The notes beneath the pieces were generated by a model that was given only the letters and a program-made list of their open reading frames with translations, was not told where the DNA came from and searched no databases. The position numbers and the translations under genes were made by a program. This document shows positions 21,430 through 61,352 of a stretch of 64,000 nucleotides of DNA, in pieces. The DNA comes from Agaricus subrufescens (taxonomy: Eukaryota; Basidiomycota; Agaricomycetes; Agaricales; Agaricaceae): positions 1-64,000 of the forward strand of contig JAQOTE010000017.1 of the NCBI GenBank assembly GCA_029945375.1, written 5' to 3'. How positions within the stretch are numbered: the stretch's first letter is position 1; each line of letters starts with the position of its first letter.

Positions 21430-21849
21430 CTATGCACCAAATCCATATAGTGTGCGCCCTGAGCGCTTGAGCGCGTAGACCACGTCCAGCGCTGTAACTG
21501 TCTTCCGCTTCGCATGCTCCGTGTATGTCACAGAGTCCCGAATCACCTGCACAAGATGCTCAGTTCTCTCGCACACACCGCCCCTGTCAGGCCAACTCAC
21601 ATTTTCGAGGAAGATCTTGAGTACCCCACGTGTCTCCTCATATATCAGCCCAGAGATACGTTTTACACCACCACGACGGGCCAGGCGACGAATAGCCGGC
21701 TTTGTGATTCCTACCCAGACCAATAAGTTTAAAAGGTTATCCCCCGACCGTCGGAAGTACATACCCTGGATGTTGTCACGAAGGATTTTGCGGTGACGCT
21801 TGGCACCACCCTTTCCGAGGCCCTTTCCACCTTTTCCGCGTCCAGACAT
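21430..21849 (-). CDS. Histone H4
   Basis: Core histone H4, component of the nucleosome. Three exons: [19 protein letters not shown] through DNIQG; then, after an intron with GTATGT...GTAG ends, [20 protein letters not shown] through LENV; then, after a GTGAGT...GCAG intron, [20 protein letters not shown] to the stop at 21430. The joined product has the standard 103 residues and is near-identical to H4 of other eukaryotes. The frame reads straight through both introns, so a naive open frame is longer than the true protein. It is divergent from H3. Confidence 0.97.
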
Positions 21850-41155: not shown

Positions 41156-42264
41156 CACCCCCTTGATCCAAGCAGTCTAGTGTCCAAGTCCCAATAGCAG
41201 GACAGCAAAATCAATCACCTTTGGTGCCACAGCCTTGGTCAGAATGTCTGCCACTTGCTGATCAGTAGAAACATAGAGGGGATCAATGATTCCTTCTTCT
41301 ACAGCCTCCCGGAGCCAGTAGAACCAAAGATCTAGGTGTTTCATGCGCCCATGGTGCTCAGGATTCTTTGCCACACTGATTCCAGACTTGTTATCAACAA
41401 ATAAAGTCAAAGCAAGTGTCTGGGGGTAGCCAAACTTGCTGAGAATGTTCCTAGTCCACTTGATCTCCTTTCCAGCCTCAACAGCAGCCACAAACTCAGC
41501 CTCAGTGCTCGAGAGAGTCACAAAGGGCTGATGCTTTGAGGACCAGCCCACAGCAGCACCAGAGACAATGGTCACATATCCACCTGTAGCTCAACCTGTG
41601 GCCTTGCAGCCACCATGAGAGGCATCGGAATAGGTGGTAAACAGTTCCCCAGAGTCACCACCTCTATAGACAAGCTGGTAGTGCAGAGTGCCCTTCAAAT
41701 AGCAAAGTAAATGCTTCACTGCAAGCCAATGGGCAGGAGCTGGGTTATGATTGAATCTCCCAAGGTAAGAGACTGCATAGGCAATGTCAGGACAAGTCAT
41801 AGTGGTGAGATACTGCAGGGCACCTACAGCAGAGAGATAAGGAACTGATTTCATCCCAGCTTGCTCCTCAAGAGAGGGCACAATGTTGGAGAGCTCAGAA
41901 CCTGGTGTAAGTGGAGTGGAAAGGGATTTTTTTTTTTTTGTAATCAATGGGATTTATTTCAAAATTGCCCTCATACATGGGATGCCATAACACATTTCTC
42001 CACCTTTCAACCCTCAGCAGTGTACATTAAGCCCAAAACAACATGCACAAACCTGTGTTCTTGTATCCACAGGATGAGGTCAACCACTCAACATAAATAA
42101 AGACTAATCATAAAGTCCATAGTGAAATGAAAGAATGACTATGAAAAGGCCATCATGATGCAAATTAAAAGAAATATTTATTCCACCTCTAAATGCAAGG
42201 GAATTGACATTGAAGCCAACTCCAATCAAACCGATGTTTCCAGAACAGGCACAAAGTGTCTGTT

Positions 42265-44014
42265 GCAGAATGATTTACCTTAGCGCACTTTGAAGTGACG
42301 CAGTTGATGCAGCAACATTGATCAACTTGTTTAGGGTTAACCAATGTGGAATGATTATGTTCAGTGTGAGGACCACTGCAAAGAGGGCAGTGGATGCCTT
42401 GTTGGCGACACTGATTTGCATGGTGGCCCCATCAATGACAACGTTGGCATCAGACGGAGCTGGAGTGGGGGCATGCACCCTGGATACAGCACAAGGTTCC
42501 TGAAACAGAAACCCTCTGGCCAATGAAAGTGCAGGCATTAGAGCCCATCGTGGTGTCGGAGATATTGACCCAAGCAATGCAAGAGTTGGAATGAGCAGAA
42601 GTATGCATGATGTGCACTTGGTGTTGGATGAGATGGCCCAAGCGGGCATGTGGAGAAGCAATGATAGCATCTAGAAGACACTTATGCATGAGATTAACCC
42701 AATCATTTTTGGGCATAGACTGGGGAATGGGGACATCCACAATCTTCAGAAGGAGGTTGAGGTGGCTGGCATGGCTTGGATTGGCTGAGGGAGGCCTGTA
42801 GGGAGGAGATGGCAGATGTGTTTGAGCATGAAGGTGGCCTTGGGTGGGGTCAGGACAGTAGTGGTGGCTAAGAAAATCTTCCTGTTGCCACCTGGTTCTG
42901 CATGAGTAATCAGCATCTTGGAAGAACCAAGATCTGATCCAATAAGCTTGTTGATCTCTGCGATAAGAGATAGGGAGATATCAGCAGTGGACTTATTAGA
43001 TCTGGCTGGTGGAGTTAGGATAATGCTGTGGTGCAAAGCACCATGGACAGTGTGGCGGAAGTTGCGCTTTGACCTAGGTTTGGGCACAATGCAAGAGACA
43101 GCAGGAGCAGCCTTGGGAGGAGGATGTTCCTTGACTTCAGTGACCACTGGTTCTGCAATGACCTCCATTGCTGGAGGCGGAGCACTCAGTGGGACCGGGG
43201 TAGAAGGTGGGGCAGGAGTAGCCAGGCCAGATCGCAGCTTCTTCCTAGGAGGTGAGACATTGCCAGGAATGGCAATCTCAAGCTTCTTTTTGGGTGGTTG
43301 TGCCCTAAGAATAAGACAATCAATCCCCGCAGACATAGACATGCCATTGGAGAGGACCGTGCACTTGTGCTTGCCAGCCTGGACAGCAACAAGGAGAGAA
43401 TTAAGAGCTTCAAAGGCAAAGAAGCCCATGAACTCTCTGTTCTTGTAGATCTCCCTGTTGTTAGAGAGCCAATTGAGAACCTCAGCAGGGCCAAAGGCCG
43501 GCTGAGGCTCGGGGACTGGGGTAGGGGCCAGGACTGGAGTGGCAGAGCACACTGACTGCTGCTCCATGCCAGATTCTTCATCCCAATTCTCTGGGGGGCC
43601 AGAGGTAGAGGGGGAAGGGGAGGGGGAAGGAGGCAGGGCAGCACTGGACAATCCAGATGCTGTTGGCTTCATGGGGAGGGAGGGGAATGGTTGATGAACA
43701 TTGACTCCCATCATTTGAGCAATTGCATGGGCATTGGCCCACATGTGGAGAGCTTTGTAGTCTGCTGAGTTGAGGTACTCAGCAAACTCAGGATAGATCT
43801 TGAGCACATCCTTCTCAGCAAGGTGAGGAGGAGGTTTGGGTTTGGGCATGGCTTGGGGAACGTCCTGGCCATACTCATATGTGATGGTCATGGGGTTGGG
43901 AGTACCCTTGGGGAGGCAGGGGTTCTTCTTGTGCATCAACTCCTCAGCAGCATCCCAGATGGACTGGGGCATGCCAGGAGGCTTGGACAGTTGTTTAGAT
44001 TGCTTGGGCAGCAT
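42265..44014 (-). pseudogene. ORF1-like protein of retroposon copy 1, frameshifted
   Basis: Starts MLPKQSKQLSKPPGMPQSIW and has a long Pro/Ser-rich disordered region, then a basic region (PRSKRNFRHTVHGALHHSII) and a conserved domain (SLIAEINKLIGSDLGSSKML; ATFMLKHICHLLPTGLPQPI). A frameshift near 42742 leads to VDVPIPQSMPKNDWVNLMHK. A further shift or shifts precede a Cys/His region containing WGHHANQCRQQGIHCPLCSG. This matches copy 3 at 58473-60236. Zinc knuckles of this form are known from LINE ORF1 and gag proteins and suggest RNA binding. Confidence 0.8.
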
Positions 44015-44045
44015 ATCAGATGATGAATACTACTTCTATGCTATG

Positions 44046-44079
44046 ACCACTGAGACTTCCAAAAGAGGAAGGTAGTGGT
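44046..44079 (-). other. Conserved 5' hairpin of retroposon copy 1
   Basis: Leftward, outer stem ACCACT/AGTGGT and inner stem CTTCC/GGAAG around the loop TCTTTT. The same structure is at 58407-58440 and 61150-61183 and, degraded, at 53757-53790. Confidence 0.8.
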
Positions 44080-44340
44080 AACAGGTCAAGAAGCATGTTG
44101 GTGAAAAGGGAGTTGGAATCATCCATATTGAATTGTTCTAGCAGCTCCTTGATGTAGTGCTCTTGAGAGAGCAAAATAGTGTGCTTAGAACAGTCCTGCT
44201 TCACCTGAATACCTAGTAGCAGAGTGGTAGACCCAAGATCTCACAGTTTGAAGTGGCTAGACAGCTGAGAGACAGCAGCAGAGACAGCAGAATTGCTTTT
44301 AGACACCAGAGTTATATCATCAATGAAGACAGGCACTATG

Positions 44341-51529: not shown

Positions 51530-51993
51530 TATGTGTCAAAATAGTTGACACCAGGCACTTGCAAAAAAAGCCTTGTGCCACTTTTTTTTTTTGTATCAAT
51601 GGCACCTCTCAGTGGACCTTCTATTCAGGTAGCTATAAGGACATCCAGGTAGATAATCTGGGCACACTACAAGAATATGGCAGCCATGATGCATCACCAA
51701 AGAAAAGAAAAAAATTAAGCCCCTAACAACATGATTAACAGAAAAACATATCTGGCAGAAAGATCATTGCCTCGAGGAGAGATAAAAAACAAAACATAAA
51801 GGAAAAAGAAATGATAAGTCCAAAAGAAAAGCAAGTGAAGCAAGCTGTAGCTCAAACAAACACATATCACCTATGTTCAGACTTGGATACACCCCCAATT
51901 TTCAGATGAGACAGTTACCGATTGTGGACAAGATGGTGAGGGAAAGTGGTGGGTGCCGGCAGCACATGCTCCTGAAACAGGCAGTGAGACCTA

Positions 51994-53757
51994 CTACTTC
52001 TTTGATGGGAACTGGCACTTGAGCCAATCCTGATCAAAGCAATTGTTCCAGAATGGACACAAAGTGCCTATTGTGGAGTGTGCCAAATTCTTCTTCTTTG
52101 CTGCAGAGCAGTTGGTGCAGTGGCAGTTGTCTGGATTCCTCTTCATTGCTATGGATGCCTGAACATGCGAGTCAGCTGAGTGTGGACCTGTGCAGTGAGA
52201 ACAGCATATGCCCTTGGACTGGCATACATCAGTGTGGTGACCCCACCTCTGGCACTGAGTGCAGAGGGCAGAGCCGTGGATTTGGCAGTTGCACCTGCCA
52301 ATAAAGACATGCTTACCAATGAAGTCCTGGGCTGTGTGGCCTGAGATGGAGTCTGCAATGTCAACCCAGGCTATGCAAGTGTCAGACTTACATGATGTCT
52401 GCATGAAGCAGACAGCATGCTTGATGTGTGTAGATAAAGGTTTACCCACAGGCAAGTTGTGCATTGTGAGGGTGAAGGCCTTGCGCTGCACCTGGATCCA
52501 GGTGGCTGGGGGAGCCAGAATGAGTGGTATGTCCAAGATCTTGAGGTAGGATGTGGAGGTGGGAATTGCAGACTGGAGTGGTACAAGTCCATTGGGGTCA
52601 ACAAGGCAGTGTACATGCCTAAGCACGCATGCAGACTCAGGTTTAGAGAGTACCTGGGAAGTGGCAATGAAGATGCCAGAGGCCAAGTTGATGGAAGATT
52701 CTAGAATGACCTCGGACTTGAGGTTATCCTTGAGATGTTGGTTGCACTCCCAGAGAATATTGGGAGTGATATTAATAGCACGAATTTGAGATCCAGCCAG
52801 TGGATGGATGAGGACTCCATGGCACTTTGTGCCGTGGCTGGTGTGCTTGCCCTTGTGTGTGGGAGCGCACCTGGACACAGTGGGGGCAGAGGAGGGAGCT
52901 GGGGCCTTTGGAAGAGAGGGGACGGGGGCCGGCTTGGCCTTGAGAGAGCTCTTGGAGAGAGCTTGAACAGCTGCGGGCACAGCTGGGGCACACTTTCCAG
53001 AAGCAGCTTGCTTGGGTGTAGACCCAGGTGGCTGAATCCGGACTTTTTTCAGGACTGGGGTAGCTACCTCACCCTCGGTCATCAGGGACCAGGGGCAACT
53101 TGAGGGAATGACCGGGGTGGAAGGGGGGAAAAGGGGGGTGGTGGGCTTGACTGGGGAAGGGGGCAGCAGTCCAGCTTGGGCAATGAGCATGGCAAGTGTG
53201 ACCTCAAAGGAGGAATGGCCTGTCATGTTTTGAAACTTGACATTCTTGTGGGCGCTACTCCGCAAGATGATGAAAACAAGACGAAGAAGTTCACCAGCAT
53301 GGCCAATGAAGTTCTCATCAGGGGAGGTGGTTTGGACAATGTCAGCAGCTGTTGACAGCATGCTGGTGAGGTGATGCTTCTTTCCAGGCACCTTGGAGGG
53401 CAAGTAGAGAGAAGCAGTGTGGGATGTGGTGGAGAGCACTGGCAAATTGAGGAAATTCATCAAGTGCTCAGGTGTCATTCCCCTGCCCTGGCAAGAGGAC
53501 GAAGGGGTGGGGGTTACCAGGGTGGTGGGATGGGAGGGTCGTTGCAAGCAATGGCCTTTCCAAATTTTGCACACATCTTCTTAGCACGCATCATTGGCTT
53601 GGGTGGCAGGTTGTCCTGGGCCATTAAATGAGATGTGGACTCCTGTACCTCCGCAAGGATGCACTTGAAGTCCATATCAGAGATGGCAGGGACAGTATCT
53701 TTGAACCACTTGCCAGACATGTCCATAGCACTGCATTTATTGCTACTCATAGCTCTA
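51994..53757 (-). pseudogene. ORF1-like protein of retroposon copy 2, one frameshift
   Basis: N-terminal frame reads MSSNKCSAMDMSGKWFKDTV and ISDMDFKCILAEVQESTSHL to about 53545, where a shift leads into a long 500-codon frame (TPEHLMNFLNLPVLSTTSHT onward). Order of parts: disordered Pro/Ser/Lys region, KGKHTSHGTK, domain (LKSEVILESSINLASGIFIA), and the Cys/His region CTQCQRWGHHTDVC (CCHC) plus a second CSHCTGPHSADSH. The C-terminus is CPFWNNCFDQDWLKCQFPSK. The same last motif (CPFWxxCFDxxWL) ends copy 3. The piece at 62704 onward is the same subfamily. Confidence 0.8.
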
Positions 53758-53790
53758 GCACTGAGACTTCCAAAAGAGGAAGGTATTGGT
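53757..53790 (-). other. 5' hairpin of retroposon copy 2 (decayed)
   Basis: Inner stem CTTCC/GGAAG and loop TCTTTT are intact; the outer stem has changed (ACCAAT against AGTGCT). Confidence 0.7.
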
Positions 53791-55991
53791 TTGAGTTCAA
53801 GAAGTGATGAGCCTTGTGCCACTAGTTGAGCTTTGTAGTGGACAACATTTCTGGCCACATCCTTCTTTGCCTTAAATACCCATTTGCAGCCTACAATGTT
53901 TACCCCTTTGGGTGCTTCTGTGAGTTCCCACATACCCGCTCCCTTCAAGGTTGATAATTCTTCTTCAATTGCCCCCTTCCACAACAACCAATCAGATCTC
54001 CTCATTGCATCCTTCAAACTGGTAGGTTCTAATGCCTCCATTTCTTCTACTTCTGATGCAAATGCCCAGACCTCTTCCCATTCAGTCATTTTAGCAAGCA
54101 TCATGTCTCTCTCTTCTAGGATATCCTTTATTTTCTGGCTCAGTGCTTGGACGTGTTGGGGGCAATCAGGGATGGCAATTGATGATGGGTGAAATTTGGG
54201 TTTCATGTCTTCAGGTTTCACATCTGGAGGACAGTCTGGTGTGGGGTTGGTTTTGGTGGGGGACGGCTCTGGTTTTTCGGGGTTGACTTTTGGGTCTGAG
54301 GTAGGTTCCTTGTCACTGTCAGTCTTGTCAATCAGAAATGATGTGTCTTGCTCCCCCTCAAGACTGGAGTGACCATTTTTGGCGAAACAAAAGTTCTGTT
54401 CTACCTTGACACTGCCAGAGTTGACAAACCAGATGCGTGAGCCATTACTCTCAGCATCATATCCTAACCATCGGCCCTTCTCTGCTTGACCACCCAACTT
54501 GTCCCCTTTGGGATTGTGCACCCAAACTTCTGTTCCCCACTCATGCAAGCCGTTTAAATCTGGTTTCCTTCCATACACAACCTCATACAGTGTCTTTCCC
54601 TCCACAGCCTTGGTCCTGGTTTGGTTTATTAACCATACAACATGCGAGACAGTGTTGGCCCACAAGTACTTGGGCAAATGTTTTGTGGCATGGAAGATAG
54701 TGTGGCCATGTTCAACAATAGTTCTGTTGCATTGCTCTGCCACACCATTATGTTGAGGGGTGTCATGTATGGTAAGTTTGGCTTCTGTTCCTTGAGTCTT
54801 CAGGTGCTGTTTGAATTTGGCAGATGTATATTCCCCTCCTCGATCAGAATGAAGTGTTTTGATATGGGCACACAGCTGGGTCTCACACCAGCTTTCAAAG
54901 TTTCTGTATGCCTGGAATACGTCTGATTTCTTTTCAAGGAAGGAGATGTGAGTCTACTAAGAGTGATCATTGGTGAATGTGACATAGTAGTGCCAGTCTT
55001 TTCTCGTGGCAACTTTTGCTGGTCCCCAGACATCTGAGTGGACCTCCTGTCTGAATTCCTTAGCTCATTCCCCACTCCATTCCTTGGCTATAGGTAAGTG
55101 AGTAGCTTTTGCGAAAGCACATGACTCGCAGAAAAGATCAACATCCATTCTCCCTTCCAGCTTAATGCCTGTCACCATCCCATCATTTACAAGTTTTCAA
55201 GCAGCAGTGGGTGCAATGTGTCCAAGGCAGTGGTGTAGCATATCCAAGGTGAGTATGTTGCCCATGGTGTTCACCTCAGCCGCATTTTCATGTATCAACT
55301 TGTATAGGCTGTTCTTGTTTCTTGGTATCTCTGCCACCTGCATTGAGTCTTTGTCTTGGATGATACATTTCCCATTTGAGAATGTAGTGACAAAGCCTGC
55401 CTCATTGAGTCGCCCAACAGATACGAGTGTATATCCAACGTTGGGTGCATACAAGACTTCAGTCAGTCTTAGCTGTGATGTATTAATGCTGTTTGGTAGG
55501 TCAAGAATGACCTCCCCTTTGCCTAGTGCACAGAATGTTTCTTTGTTTGCAGCTCAGATTGGGTGGGGTAAGATATTTTCAAAGGTGATGAAGGCATCTT
55601 GGTAGGGAGTAATGTGTCTGGAGGCTCCTAAGTCAAAAAGTTCGATATGCACACTTGAGGTGGGTCCATCCTGAACATGTGTTATGTGATCTCCGGCTTC
55701 AACAATTGTTGCATAGGCCTCTACCAACTCCCCCTCAAACTTGTGATCTTTGCTCAAGAACTCCTCTAGTTTGGCAACCTCCATATTTATTGATCCAGGG
55801 ATTTCCTTCACAGTGAAAGCAGCATTGTCATCATTGATGGCATTTGCACTTGCCTTTGTTTTATCATTTCTGGTAGACTTCTCATCCTCCTTCTTTTTAG
55901 GACAGTCCTTTTTTAGGTGGGGGCCTCCACACTTCCAACATGGTCCAACATTCCCCTTTTTCTTCTTCCCCTTATCTTTGGGTTCAAACAC

Positions 55992-56727: not shown

Positions 56728-58406
56728 GGTTATGGGCCCCGGCTTCTAACGACCTACAAATTGATTTTTCATTCTTCAACCATCTTCAACTCAACTCCTA
56801 CTCTCTCCCTTCCCTCCTCCCTCAAACTATTTCGCTTCTCCTGCCCTCATTTTTGCTCATATGGCTTCGGGTTCGCCAGCATTCGTTAAGCTCAACGGGG
56901 AGAACTATGCCACGTGGTCCGGCGAGATGGAGGCCTGGCTACGAGCCTCTGGCCTATGGAGACTTGTTTCAGGCAAGCAAAGTGCTCCTTCCATTCCCTC
57001 TTCCCCTACTCCCCAGGATTTTGCTTCCCAGTCACTCTGGGAGGATAAACTCGACAAGGCAGCTGGCTGGCTGTATCTAATGGTTGAAGAAGACCAAAGG
57101 GTGCATTTTGCAGGCATCCAGGACGATCCAATCAAGATGTGGGCTGCTCTGGAGGCTGTACATTGTCAGAAGAAGGCTGGAATGCGATTCAATGCCTATG
57201 ATGAGCTGTTCAGCATCCGTAAACTCGAAGAGGAGTCCCTCCAGTCACTTATAAACCGTGTAGAGGGCTGCAAACGTCGTCTGAAGGAGCTCAGACTGGA
57301 GAAATTCACTTTAGACCAGCTGGATGATGAGCTGGCCTCTATGGCACTCATTAGGGCGCTCCCAGACGAGTTTTCGGCCTTTACATCGTCTCTCCTGCTC
57401 ATGGACAAGCTGGACAAGACCACAATCCACCAGGCCTTCGTTACAGAGGATATCCAGCGAAGGAAACGTGCTCAGGACGCCTTGGGAGGCTCCCAGGCCC
57501 TAGCAGCGCGTTCTGGCTTCAAAAACGCGTCGGAGACCTGCGATTTCTGTGGGAGGACCGGTCACAAGGTGGCTAACTGCTGGACGTTCGAAAAAGCGAA
57601 GAAACGCGCTCAGGAGGACGCTCAGAAGCCCAGAACTCGAGGAAACAAGGCCAACAAGGCCCAGGACAGCTCCAATGACTCCCCCACTGCTTCTGGAAGC
57701 TCTAGCTCGACTCCTGGTGCCGAAAAAGCGCAGAGAGTGCAAGGATTTGCTGGAAATGCAAGTGCTCCCTCCCCTACCTCTTCCCCTTTGCTCTCTGCCC
57801 CTCTGCAGCTCGATGCTGACTTCCACTGGCTTGCAGATACAGGGGCCACTTCTCATATGACCCCCCACAAGCATTGGTTCAAATCCTACTCCCCCCATTG
57901 CATTCCCATTCGCTTAGCTGATAATTCAGTTGTCTACTCTGCTGGGGTGGGGTCTGTGGTCTTTGAGCCAGTTTTGAGCAGAAAGGTGGCTAGAGCGGTC
58001 AAGTTTACTAGGGTTTTACATGTTTCTGCACTCCGCAGTAATCTGCTGTCTTGTCTATACCTTGCACAGCACAAGAATTTCATTATCACGATTTCTGTTT
58101 GTTCTATGGCCTTCTGCTGCAAGGGAACAACGCTTTTCACGGCCACCATCCATCCCAACACCTCTGCTGAGCTAGATGGCTCAACTTTGACCTCAGAGGC
58201 CGCTTTTTCAGTCTCTACACTCCCCTGTGACCTCTCCCTATGGCATCGTCGCTTTATTCACCACAATTATGCTGATGTGAGGTCTATGGTGAACAAGGAG
58301 CTTGTTACAGGCCTTAAAATCGACTCTAAAGCATCCCCAGACCCCATATGTGAACCCTGCCTTGCTGGGAAGATGCATTCGCTTCCTATTCCTTCCTTGA
58401 CCTCTT

Positions 58407-58440
58407 ACCACTACCTTCCTCTTTTGGAAGCCTCAGTGGT
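58407..58440 (+). other. 5' hairpin of retroposon copy 3
   Basis: ACCACT and AGTGGT pair as outer stem, CTTCC and GGAAG as inner stem, with loop TCTTTT. Starts 19 nt after the insertion point. Confidence 0.8.
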
Positions 58441-58472
58441 TTAGTTGTAATAGTAGGGAGTACATCTTATTC

Positions 58473-60236
58473 ATGCCTCCTAAACATCACAACAAAGCAT
58501 CCTCCCAACCTCCTGCGGCAGGTATGCCTGCCCCTCTGCGTCATGAGATGCTCCAGGAATTTGTGGATGAGGACTGGGATTCTCCAGGCCCCGCCCCTCC
58601 CGTTCCCAAGCTTGAGCCCTCATTCTTTTTGGGCACTCTTTCTAATCCTAGCCAGACTTACGTCGGTGCTACTCCCTTCCAGTCTGAATGGCCTTCGGTC
58701 TCTAGACCTGGAAATCTTCTTCCACCAGCAGAGATTCTCTCTGCTTTTGATTCAGCTCCTCGACATGAGTTGACGCAAGTCACTCAGTCTCTTCTGGGCA
58801 AACAGCCTGAACAGCCGTCTCCGACCCCCTCCGCCATGCTGACCACAGAATCGCCTGCTCACATTCCTGTGGAAGTTTCACCTGACCCCCCAGTTCCAGA
58901 AATCCCGTACACTAGAGATAACGTTCCAGGGCGCGATCTCTTCTTCTCTACTCTTGAAGATTACACATCTTCACTCACTGCAGCAGATAGCGACACCCCC
59001 CGTTTTCTATCCATGATACTCACCAGCCTTCAGATCCTACTTTGGGACTGGGCTGTCCTCGACCTCAAATGCGACAGTGGTTTCACCGTTGCCAATTTAC
59101 TTGACGGACTACCACGTTCTCAATGTGTGGATTTCGCTCCTCTCCCTACCGGTACCTCGGGCCAAGCTCCCCGGCCTATCCCAAAACCTCATGTCAAGCG
59201 GACCAAGGTTACGCCGCCATCCCCACATCCCAAGCCGAGTGCTCCAGCAAAAGCTGATCGTGCACCGGCTCCTGTTCTCCAACAGCGTCCGCCTCCTTTG
59301 GAGGCTCCCGCTGTTTCTGTCACTGCGCCCAAACGTCGTCGTCGCCAAGGCAAACACACTATCCACGGCCCTTCTCACCGTGGTATCTCCATTTGTACGC
59401 CGAGTGTCTTGAACTTCAAGGCTACTCTAATCACCTCGGAGATCTTATTTGATCTCAACAAGCTTATTGCGAAGAATCTACCCAAGTCCAACAACTTGAT
59501 TATCCTTTCTTCCCTTGATGAAGGCGGCCCAGGGAAAGTTTTCTTATCTACCAGCCGCGTTCCCACTAGATCTGAAACCGACTTCGTGCTCAAGCACATC
59601 AAGGTGTGTTTCCCTGTCCCAGAAGGTGTGAATCCTATTCGCAAATCCGCCATCAAATCCACCACCTATCTCAAGGTGCTGGATATTCCAATCACCGATC
59701 CTACCTCCAAGGAATGGCTCGCCCCCACTTCGGCTCGTATCCACGACGAGTTCTGAAAATCTATAATCGGCTCCACTTTAGCCGATGAAACTCGCAACAT
59801 CCACATCATGCAGACTTCTCCCCACTCTGACACATGTGTAGCATGGGTCAACATTATTGATTCGGTATCCGGTACTAACGGAAGAGGTTATATTGGTAAG
59901 CATATTCAAGTCGCTGGCGTCAACTGCAGGATTGCCGGCGCTTGTCCCCACTCCGGTTCCGTCTTATGCACCCGGTGCTATAGATGGGGCCATCATTCTA
60001 GTCAGTGCCACTGGGAAGGTGTGCGCTGTCCACTCTGCGGGGGTCCTCATTGGGAGGAATCGCATCATCTCATGGTTCCAGCCAAATCGGTTGAGAACCG
60101 GCATTGCATGAATTGTACCGCATTGAAGTGGGAAAAGCGTGATCACTCCGCCCTGGACAGAAAGAGTTGTCCGTTCTGGGCTCATTGTTTTGATAGGGAA
60201 TGGCTTCGTCGCCAATTTCTGCCGAAGAAGATTTAA
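58473..60236 (+). pseudogene. ORF1-like zinc-knuckle protein of retroposon copy 3, one in-frame TGA
   Basis: A 588-codon frame interrupted once, by TGA at 59754-59756. Starts MPPKHHNKASSQPPAAGMPA; the first third is disordered and Pro/Ser-rich. Then RTKVTPPSPHPK and KRRRRQGKHTIHGPSHRGIS (basic), a folded-looking domain (LITSEILFDLNKLIAKNLPK; SETDFVLKHIKVCFPVPEGV; STTYLKVLDIPITDPTSKEW), GYIGKHIQVAGVNCRIAG, then CTRCYRWGHHSSQC (CCHC), CPLCGGPHWEESH and a further Cys pair, ending CPFWAHCFDREWLRRQF. The knuckles indicate nucleic-acid binding, as in LINE ORF1. No endonuclease or RT motif. The stop is most simply CGA to TGA. Confidence 0.85.
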
Positions 60237-60486
60237 CAGAGGTGTCCTGTATTTTTAACCACTTCTAATCTTCATTTTCATCTCTCACCGTCTTGTAAGT
60301 ATCAATTTGGACTCTCTTTTATGCGTACCACTTCGATTCTATGGAACATTCTCTAGTTTACGTATGCAGTTTTTCCTTCCACTAGTTATCTACTGGTGTA
60401 GGGCTGGCAGGTGATGTAAAGCTGGGGGAACGCGTCATGGCACCCCACGTACAAGGCCAGTTTTGAAATAAACCCCATTGATTACA

Positions 60487-60512
60487 AAAAAAAAAAAAAA
60501 AAAAAAAAAAAA
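60487..60512 (+). repeat. Poly(A) tail of retroposon copy 3
   Basis: 26 A residues directly before the downstream target duplication, about 20 bp after an AATAAA. Confidence 0.93.
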
Positions 60513-61097
60513 TGCATTCGCTTCCTTTCCCCTCCTCTACCAGCCATAATCGATCCCCACTTGAGCTGGTGCACTCAGACCTTCACGGACCGCTCCCAGT
60601 CGCTTCCCACTCAGGCTACAAGTACTGGATCATGTTTATAGACAATGCAACGCGTTTCCGGGCTGTATATCTGCTGAAAAGCAAGTCTGAGGCCTTTGGA
60701 GCATTCAAAATCTACAAATCTTGGGCTGAAAACCAACTAGGAGTGAAAATGCGCGCTCTACAGGACGATAAAGGCGGTGAATACATGTCTAAAGCCTTCC
60801 TAGCCTTCACAGAGCAATGTGGCATTGATAGGAGGCATTCTACTCGCAACAGGCCTCAGCAGAACAGTCTAGCTGAAAGGGCTAACAGAACTATGGGTGA
60901 AAGGATCACTGCAATGCTCTCTGAGTCGAAATTGCCTCCAAGTTTCTGGGGTGAATGCATCTCTTCTATGGTGCATGTGTGGAATAGGCTTCCTACGCCG
61001 TCTCTCCCTGGTTCTACTCCCTTCCAAGCGTTCTATAAGCGAAAACCCGACGTCTCCCACCTCCGAGTATGGGGGTGCACTGCCTATGTGCATATAC

Positions 61098-61130: not shown

Positions 61131-61352
61131 AATCGCTTCTTGACTTCTTACCACTACCTTCCTGTTTTGGAAGCCTCAGTGGTTTAGCTGTACTAGGAGC
61201 AATACACGTTCTGCAATATGGATACTCGTCCGGACTTTGACAACGGAGGCTGGGAGACCGATAGCGACAATGATTCGAAGCTGCTGCCCGCTATGCGGGC
61301 TGCAAGTGAAGCGTTGGAGATGGAGTTGGAGACTCCAAAGGCCGCACGTTGA
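61131..61352 (+). mobile_element. Retroposon copy 4, 5' end with a short ORF
   Basis: Starts with the family 5' end (GCTTCTTGACTTCTT), then the hairpin at 61150-61183 (loop TGTTTT). An ATG at 61219 opens a 44-codon frame (MDTRPDFDNGGWETDSDNDS, ending TPKAAR at a TGA at 61350-61352) that is unlike the other ORF1 starts. Whether this is the leader of a larger element that reaches 62704 and beyond, or a truncated copy, cannot be decided here. Confidence 0.65.

Follow-up and report, generated by a model that had tools for sequence, protein, structure and literature searches.

ORF1-only retroposons of Agaricus subrufescens share their ends with full-length LINEs of the same repeat clusters

The first 64 kb (hereafter the window) of a 215-kb contig of the basidiomycete Agaricus subrufescens (JAQOTE010000017.1; GenBank assembly GCA_029945375.1, 44.65 Mb) hold insertions that encode a protein of the type of the first open reading frame (ORF1) of long interspersed nuclear elements (LINEs) and no second frame (ORF2). 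An original prediction, made from the window alone, had proposed that these elements are mobilised in trans by a LINE that has the 5' hairpin region and the 3' end in common with them and bears endonuclease and reverse transcriptase (RT). Searching the genome, we found such LINEs; among the copies that we read, none continues into an RT frame of its own, and the retroposon 5' ends are conserved rather than mostly truncated. Because the partner LINE is present and these contrary outcomes are absent, trans-mobilisation appears well supported. We conclude that the ORF1-only retroposons, which share their ends with full-length LINEs of the same clusters, probably depend for their copying in trans on the endonuclease and RT of those LINEs, with a probability of roughly 85% on the sequence evidence. 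Below, A, B and C denote the protein-coding types of retroposon and S a non-coding family.

The partner LINE was reached from the retroposon 3' end: a 96-nt query taken from it matched directly downstream of an independently found RT frame (C5:1866639). The LINE is about 8 kb long, starts with CRCTTCTTGATCTGTAACCACCACCTTCCTGTTTAGG and ends its 3' untranslated region (3'UTR) in GAAATAAATCCCATTGATTAC-poly(A). Its ORF1 of about 1,000 amino acids (aa) contains CCHC motifs, and its ORF2 contains apurinic-type endonuclease (PF14529/PF03372) and RT (PF00078) domains. A LINE-specific 5' motif occurs at 34 places against none for the control. For 11 of the 34, coordinates alone place the shared 3' end 7.9-8.4 kb further along the same strand in the downstream direction, at 8.01-8.05 kb in eight cases. 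Five more shared 3' ends pair with the LINE 5' motif at 8.5-11 kb. One of these, L019, was rejected as a single LINE with both ends, as it is a LINE holding a nested B-like copy. Two further candidate partners, taken up because a long frame follows the 5' motif, were rejected, as the motifs in their translations point to a copia host (L014) and a nested Ty3/gypsy element (L010). Target duplications were seen for the LINEs at C8:537, C8:498, C8:581 and C40; by eye, none was found for those at C8:591038, C13:1250770 and C1:4964055. A comparison by eye of the matches listed showed no RT attached to an ORF1 of the retroposon type.

We use LINE1, LINE2 and LINE3 as labels of our own. Identity of ORF2 to the L015 query falls into three groups (about 84-100%, 71-76% and 62-66%), the last of which is LINE3; the label LINE2 refers to a 5' variant, TTACCATCACC (copy C5:1915685), and marks a 5' end rather than a clean lineage, as ORF2s of the 88% group and of the 71-76% group alike follow this variant. 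In our similarity searches of frames, bodies and ends, only the best candidates were scored. Among these, stop-free ORF2s occur at no fewer than three places in the first group (1,615-1,616 aa; C20:1450, C13:1250843, C8:581523) and at least five for LINE3 (1,568-1,569 aa; C13:1230604, C5:3311092, C40:23796, C11:2026864, C1:6072128), as well as in some LINEs of the middle group. Two LINE3 copies examined further have a stop-free ORF1 too (1,006 and 1,002 aa). The 5' cassette is present in LINE3 copies too, and of their five ends four read GCCATTGATAC and one GCCATTGATAA. Of 63 internal stops counted in the ORF2 copies among the matches listed, 56 are TGA, as C-to-T decay at CGA codons would predict. 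Two full-length LINE loci, L049/L051 (C8:581443) and L050/L052 (C13:1250770), have the same 5' flank; the sequence after the poly(A) differs and then becomes similar again, which suggests duplication or exchange between clusters.

The similarity between retroposons and LINEs was measured in 78-nt blocks by gapped alignment, with z scores against shuffles and one other LINE (L064) as a 3'-end control. In the first block, the aligned positions identical to LINE1 number 54 of 65 for A (z 8.5), 57 of 68 for B (z 11.6) and 54 of 68 for C (z 11.1). In the second 78 nt similarity to LINE1 is at shuffle level (A z -0.3, B z 1.6, C z 0.5); LINE1 and LINE2 are still alike in that block (z 9.2). At the other end, the last 78 nt of A (63/73, z 21.0) and C (62/70, z 14.6) again match LINE1, and because LINE1 ORF2 stops 77 nt before the element end, this match is the LINE's own 77-nt 3'UTR. 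The control L064, the one other LINE compared, matches none of the families. It lies at C5:1878000-1879700 in the same cluster, downstream of the RT frame at C5:1881365 (minus strand), and is a different LINE with an unrelated 3' end, AATAAAATCTGATTT-poly(A). Families B and S share with the LINEs the 5' cassette and the terminal CCATTGAT(T)AC, and A and C share the LINE 3'UTR in addition.

The last letters mostly fall into two kinds. A CCC-type end (CCCATTGATTAC and small variants) is found in A, C, S, LINE1 and LINE2, and a GCC-type end (GCCATTGATAC and variants) in all seven B ends and all five LINE3 ends examined. Exceptions are the B-like element nested in L019, a divergent relative, which ends in CCCATTGATTAT; L015, which ends in GCC-poly(A); and one S copy ending in CCCATTGATA.

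At the 5' end, the motif ACCACYACCTTCCTSTTTNGG, allowing up to two mismatches, occurs at 288 places in the genome, compared with three for a reversed control. We aligned 28 of the 39 listed 5' ends, after dropping a false match (L028:5796), L014 and nine ends close to kept ones, and found 24 invariant columns. The L014 copy, a B-type element at L014:9127-9211 (minus strand), has a short internal duplication within its 5' cassette. The original prediction tentatively took the hairpin in this cassette for a functional RNA element. Each of the 11 sequence forms that we folded makes a hairpin of two parts (-8.9 to -19.5 kcal/mol, z -0.8 to -3.8), and with the first 20 nt held fixed the 3' arm pairs better than shuffles in the retroposons (p 0.002), S (p 0.008) and LINE2 (p 0.03). 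It pairs no better than shuffles in LINE1 (p 0.26) and L046 (p 0.17), and the B-type copy at 51583-53809 lacks the outer stem, folding an inner 5-bp stem alone (-6.4 kcal/mol, z -1.6). RNAalifold returned three pairs and no compensatory change; the one two-sided change in the retroposon structure is equalled in 207 of 500 shuffles. The invariant letters, moreover, lie mostly on the 5' arm of the hairpin, as would be expected of a binding motif. A scan of ten 5'-end loci against Rfam, including the hepatitis delta virus (HDV)-like ribozyme, gave no match up to E 1, and a bacterial promoter and terminator scan is uninformative on eukaryotic DNA. An internal promoter close to the start explains the cassette at least as well as an RNA element does; that the hairpin acts as RNA, for instance as a docking site for ORF1p or RT, and not as a promoter, seems to us somewhat doubtful.

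We then consider the origin of the elements. If they were direct derivatives in the manner of HAL1, ORF2 would have been deleted from the LINE that now mobilises each family and the ends inherited. Shared ends and ORF1-only coding fit such an origin, as does a C-terminal region common to the two proteins: profile comparison of the retroposon protein with LINE ORF1 aligned 125 columns across the zinc knuckles (probability 97.6, E 4.1e-12). Identity over these columns is only 25%, however, and DNA similarity drops to shuffle level right after the 5' cassette. Any origin by deletion would lie in the distant past, the ends having been preserved as everything between them diverged. We therefore judge direct derivation from the present LINEs unlikely; with so limited a protein match and DNA similarity confined to the ends, the retroposons look like old separate lineages and not like fresh deletions.

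The retroposon frame itself is under purifying selection. The median ratio of non-synonymous to synonymous substitution (dN/dS) is 0.27 (187 pairs) and 0.30 (332 pairs) in two overlapping sets of retroposon frames, compared with 0.26 for LINE ORF1 (48 pairs) and 0.14 for ORF2 (109 pairs), in values whose pairs share copies and whose silent sites are near saturation. Matches shorter than 250 aa, pairs of fewer than 200 codons and pairs with a silent difference of 0.05 or less were left out. No Pfam family passed the cut-off with the retroposon proteins. A structural model of the B-type protein, built with 33 sequences, has a mean predicted local distance difference test score (pLDDT) of 60.9, with each ten-residue block between 351 and 530 scoring more than 75, and shows two RRM-like units. 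Its best Foldseek match, and the sole one below 0.001, is the tandem RRM of IMP3 (E 3.6e-4), followed by nucleolin; in our reading the low template modelling score (TM-score) of the IMP3 match may come from a different placement of the two units. By eye, groups resembling zinc knuckles (CCHC pattern) follow the RRM-like units. The element thus appears to code for an ORF1-type RNA-binding protein, under selection and without an ORF2, which is the logic of HAL1.

The S family carries the same ends without such a protein. The locus L021:4544-1 (minus strand) holds a 1.3-kb element, split by a LINE, that has the 5' cassette and ends in CCCATTGATTAC. A genome search with its body gave 56 matches (of 56 candidates, 40 were scored), and many copies, L078-L081 among them, lie in the same clusters as the other families. 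Five copies are 78-95% alike, and as 32 of their 35 gaps have a length not divisible by three, they give no sign of a conserved frame. Four of the five copies examined end in CCCATTGATTAC, as LINE1 and LINE2 do, and the copy L081 has a 13-bp target duplication.

Copies of A, B, C, S and the LINEs carry poly(A) and target duplications of 11-15 bp. An exact-match scan recovered duplications of 10 bp or more at 10 of 36 5' ends on loci longer than 1 kb, or 9 of 26 where at least 2.4 kb lie downstream, and further ones were recognised by eye. Earlier 5'-end scans used a best-match setting that skipped weaker matches, the B-type copy of the window among them; the duplication scan was repeated without it. 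The retroposon 3' motif occurs at 96 places against one for the control, and at least 13 pairs of retroposon 5' and 3' ends could be formed, drawing on 100 of the 288 listed 5' motif places. Among the matches listed, about 28 3' ends are A-like by our own grouping, and most retain the 5' end. The original prediction that none is 5' truncated holds for the three complete window copies; elsewhere, at least three A-like copies appear truncated, with no missing piece nearby (C6:1754744, C7:1624096, C2:3421463). Several LINE copies are likewise truncated at the 5' end (L009, L016, L020, L021, L023).

The elements are strongly clustered. Of the 96 3' ends, 91 have another within 60 kb, compared with a random mean of 21.8 and maximum of 40, and they fall into 29 clusters, with no contig holding more than two. 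On most of the large contigs, nested copia/gypsy elements accumulate together with the LINEs and retroposons in one or two such places. The clusters resemble the putative centromeres reported for Agaricus bisporus, and we infer that they may be centromeres. Such heavy nesting, together with the LINE at L019 that contains a B-like copy, would also favour capture of ends, in which template switching or recombination among nested elements spread the shared ends without selection for recognition. Yet families whose interiors are unrelated have this 5' end in common, with the same letter in 24 columns throughout 28 sequences; end capture might account for the origin of this pattern and leaves its persistence unexplained. 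As a full explanation we hold it to be improbable, a little more so than direct derivation. Processed pseudogenes of a host CCHC-protein gene would explain poly(A) and target duplications, but several families with a common start that coincides with the LINE start, and selection on the frame, make this extremely unlikely, no separate search for a source gene having been made.

Mobilisation in trans by the LINEs remains the reading that we prefer, and certain observations weigh against it. Stops or frameshifts interrupt ORF1 in each of the four LINE1 copies examined, including C8:581 with its open ORF2. Beyond the last ~11 nt, B (48/70, z 2.9) and S (41/49, z 2.5) match the LINE1 3'UTR weakly. 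The shared ends could in part stem from exchange between nested elements rather than from selection. To these are added the limits on the dN/dS values and the lack of compensatory change in the 5' cassette given above.

Under trans-mobilisation, the 5' cassette would serve mainly as an internal promoter or start module, carried along with each new full-length copy, and its RNA might fold as a hairpin. The 3' cassette and poly(A) would be what the LINE RT accepts. ORF1-only elements would make their own RNA-binding protein, with two predicted RRM-like folds and zinc knuckles, coat their own RNA with it, and borrow the ORF2 protein alone; the non-coding S family would borrow everything. More tentatively, we can picture a guild of several layers: an RNA would need no other ticket to the cluster-restricted LINEs than the 78-nt 5' cassette and a CCATTGAT(T)AC tail, whether it codes for ORF1 and ORF2, for ORF1 only, or for nothing. 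The final nucleotides would then sort cargo to helper, GCCATTGATAC linking B to LINE3 and CCCATTGATTAC linking A, C and S to LINE1 and LINE2. The parasites would have held their ends in line with those of their helpers as their interiors lost all resemblance. We consider this extension possible rather than probable, and its odds are lowered because the B-like element nested in L019 ends in CCCATTGATTAT.

The coordinates of the window copies are collected in Table 1. The three complete insertions that had been described, with distinct target duplications of 11-15 bp, are all real: in addition to the A-type copy, the C-type copy is flanked by TCCCTTTTCAC/TCCCTTTCCAC (11 bp, one mismatch) and the B-type copy by GTGGCACAAGGCT (13 bp, found by eye and then by script). 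Each has the hairpin region about 20 nt from its start and ends in CCATTGAT(T)AC followed by poly(A). The hairpin, described as common to all three, is complete at the starts 58388 and 44100 and reduced to its inner stem in the B-type copy. It is also complete in the fourth copy, at 61131, and folds at -13.4 kcal/mol in each of the three (z -3.8 in the A-type copy, where it begins 19 nt after the element start). The description of a CCHC protein without RT stands as well, as CCHC knuckles are recognisable by eye and the four window frames scanned gave no Pfam match; the A-type frame, however, carries an in-frame TGA. Transposon frames predominate to the right of about 38 kb in the window, and a frame at 21430-21849 (minus strand), presumably a histone H4, is surrounded by gene-like frames.

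Table 1. Retroposon copies in the window and the parts of the A-type copy.
Feature	Position	Strand	Description
A-type copy	58388-60512	+	Complete 2.1-kb insertion, 15-bp target duplication, 5' hairpin, CCCATTGATTAC-poly(A) end
A-type target duplications	58373-58387 (5') and 60512-60526 (3')		ATGCATTCGCTTCCT, 15 bp
A-type 5' cassette	58388-58465	+	First 78 nt; common to LINEs and families B, C, S
A-type hairpin	58407-58440	+	Outer stem 58407-58412/58435-58440; inner stem 58415-58419/58426-58430
A-type ORF1-like frame	58473-60236	+	CCHC knuckles C-terminal; one in-frame TGA at 59754-59756
A-type 3' cassette	60408-60485	+	Matches 77-nt 3'UTR of LINE1/LINE2
A-type poly(A)	60486-60511	+	
C-type copy	41927-44100	-	Broken frame; 5' cassette 44023-44100; 3' cassette 41940-42017
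B-type copy	51583-53809	-	Frame 51994-53478, 494 aa from ATG; end GGTGCCATTGATAC; outer hairpin stem lost
Fourth copy, B-type	Starts near 61131, to 64000 and past window end	+	ORF match reaches C17:64463

LINE parasites are chiefly known as mimics of their helper's 3' end. Here, one genome holds open-frame LINEs together with ORF1-coding and non-coding parasites that have a common start, A and C also having the LINE 3'UTR, and all with unrelated interiors. This system makes directly testable what LINE enzymes need at each end of an RNA, and why a parasite retains its own ORF1 despite that of its helper. If the clusters are centromeres, as proposed for A. bisporus, it also bears on how centromeres are filled.

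Short interspersed nuclear elements (SINEs) with a LINE 3' tail resemble the S family, which has no conserved frame and in most copies the terminal letters of LINE1 and LINE2. S differs in sharing the LINE 5' end as well and in its length of 1.3 kb, usual SINEs being shorter. A precedent for a shared promoter is found in trypanosomatids, where Pr77, a 77-nt 5' sequence on coding and non-coding non-LTR (long terminal repeat) elements, has promoter activity (PMC4748587). By that description, Pr77 is similar to our cassette as a short 5' sequence common to coding and non-coding elements; it also contains an HDV-like ribozyme (PMC4035085), unlike the ten 5'-end loci scanned here, which have no Rfam match.

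The named protein relatives come from A. bisporus. The B protein has 10 relatives, nine of them named A. bisporus; the A frame has 31, of which nine are named A. bisporus and the remainder come nearly all from metagenome sources; and the four relatives of LINE ORF1 are all from A. bisporus. A. bisporus var. burnettii holds relatives of the A, B and LINE ORF1 proteins, some with neighbouring locus numbers (8323 and 8336 for retroposon-type proteins, 8329 for a LINE ORF1), and the Agabi119p4 labels of the relatives suggest strain H119p4 of PMC7473861. That study describes four non-LTR families of HaTad type, found only in, and in all, putative centromeric repeat clusters of A. bisporus (PMC7473861). 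The elements here are likewise confined to large repeat clusters. The likeness otherwise runs through the protein relatives only, as the passages concerned give neither a definition of HaTad nor its ends, coding content or helper; the name, we guess, stands for 'half-Tad'. A whole-word literature search for HaTad together with retrotransposon returned PMC7473861 alone, and searches on related terms, in which subscription journals were mostly outside coverage, returned no title describing such an arrangement.

HAL1 (half-L1), a non-autonomous LINE derivative of mammals, encodes only ORF1p (PMC5753468), and the A, B and C elements resemble it in being ORF1-only and non-autonomous. The comparison drawn in the original prediction holds in this logic and probably does not extend to descent by simple deletion from present LINEs: HAL1 is described as a derivative of L1, whereas here only the ends match the present LINEs, with a remote zinc-knuckle region in the protein. 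The elements are also distinct from HAL1 proper, as their ends and knuckles match LINEs of their own genome, and their named relatives are Agaricus proteins. A HAL1-like kind of element is already known; what is unusual in A. subrufescens is that such elements and their LINEs have only the ends in common.

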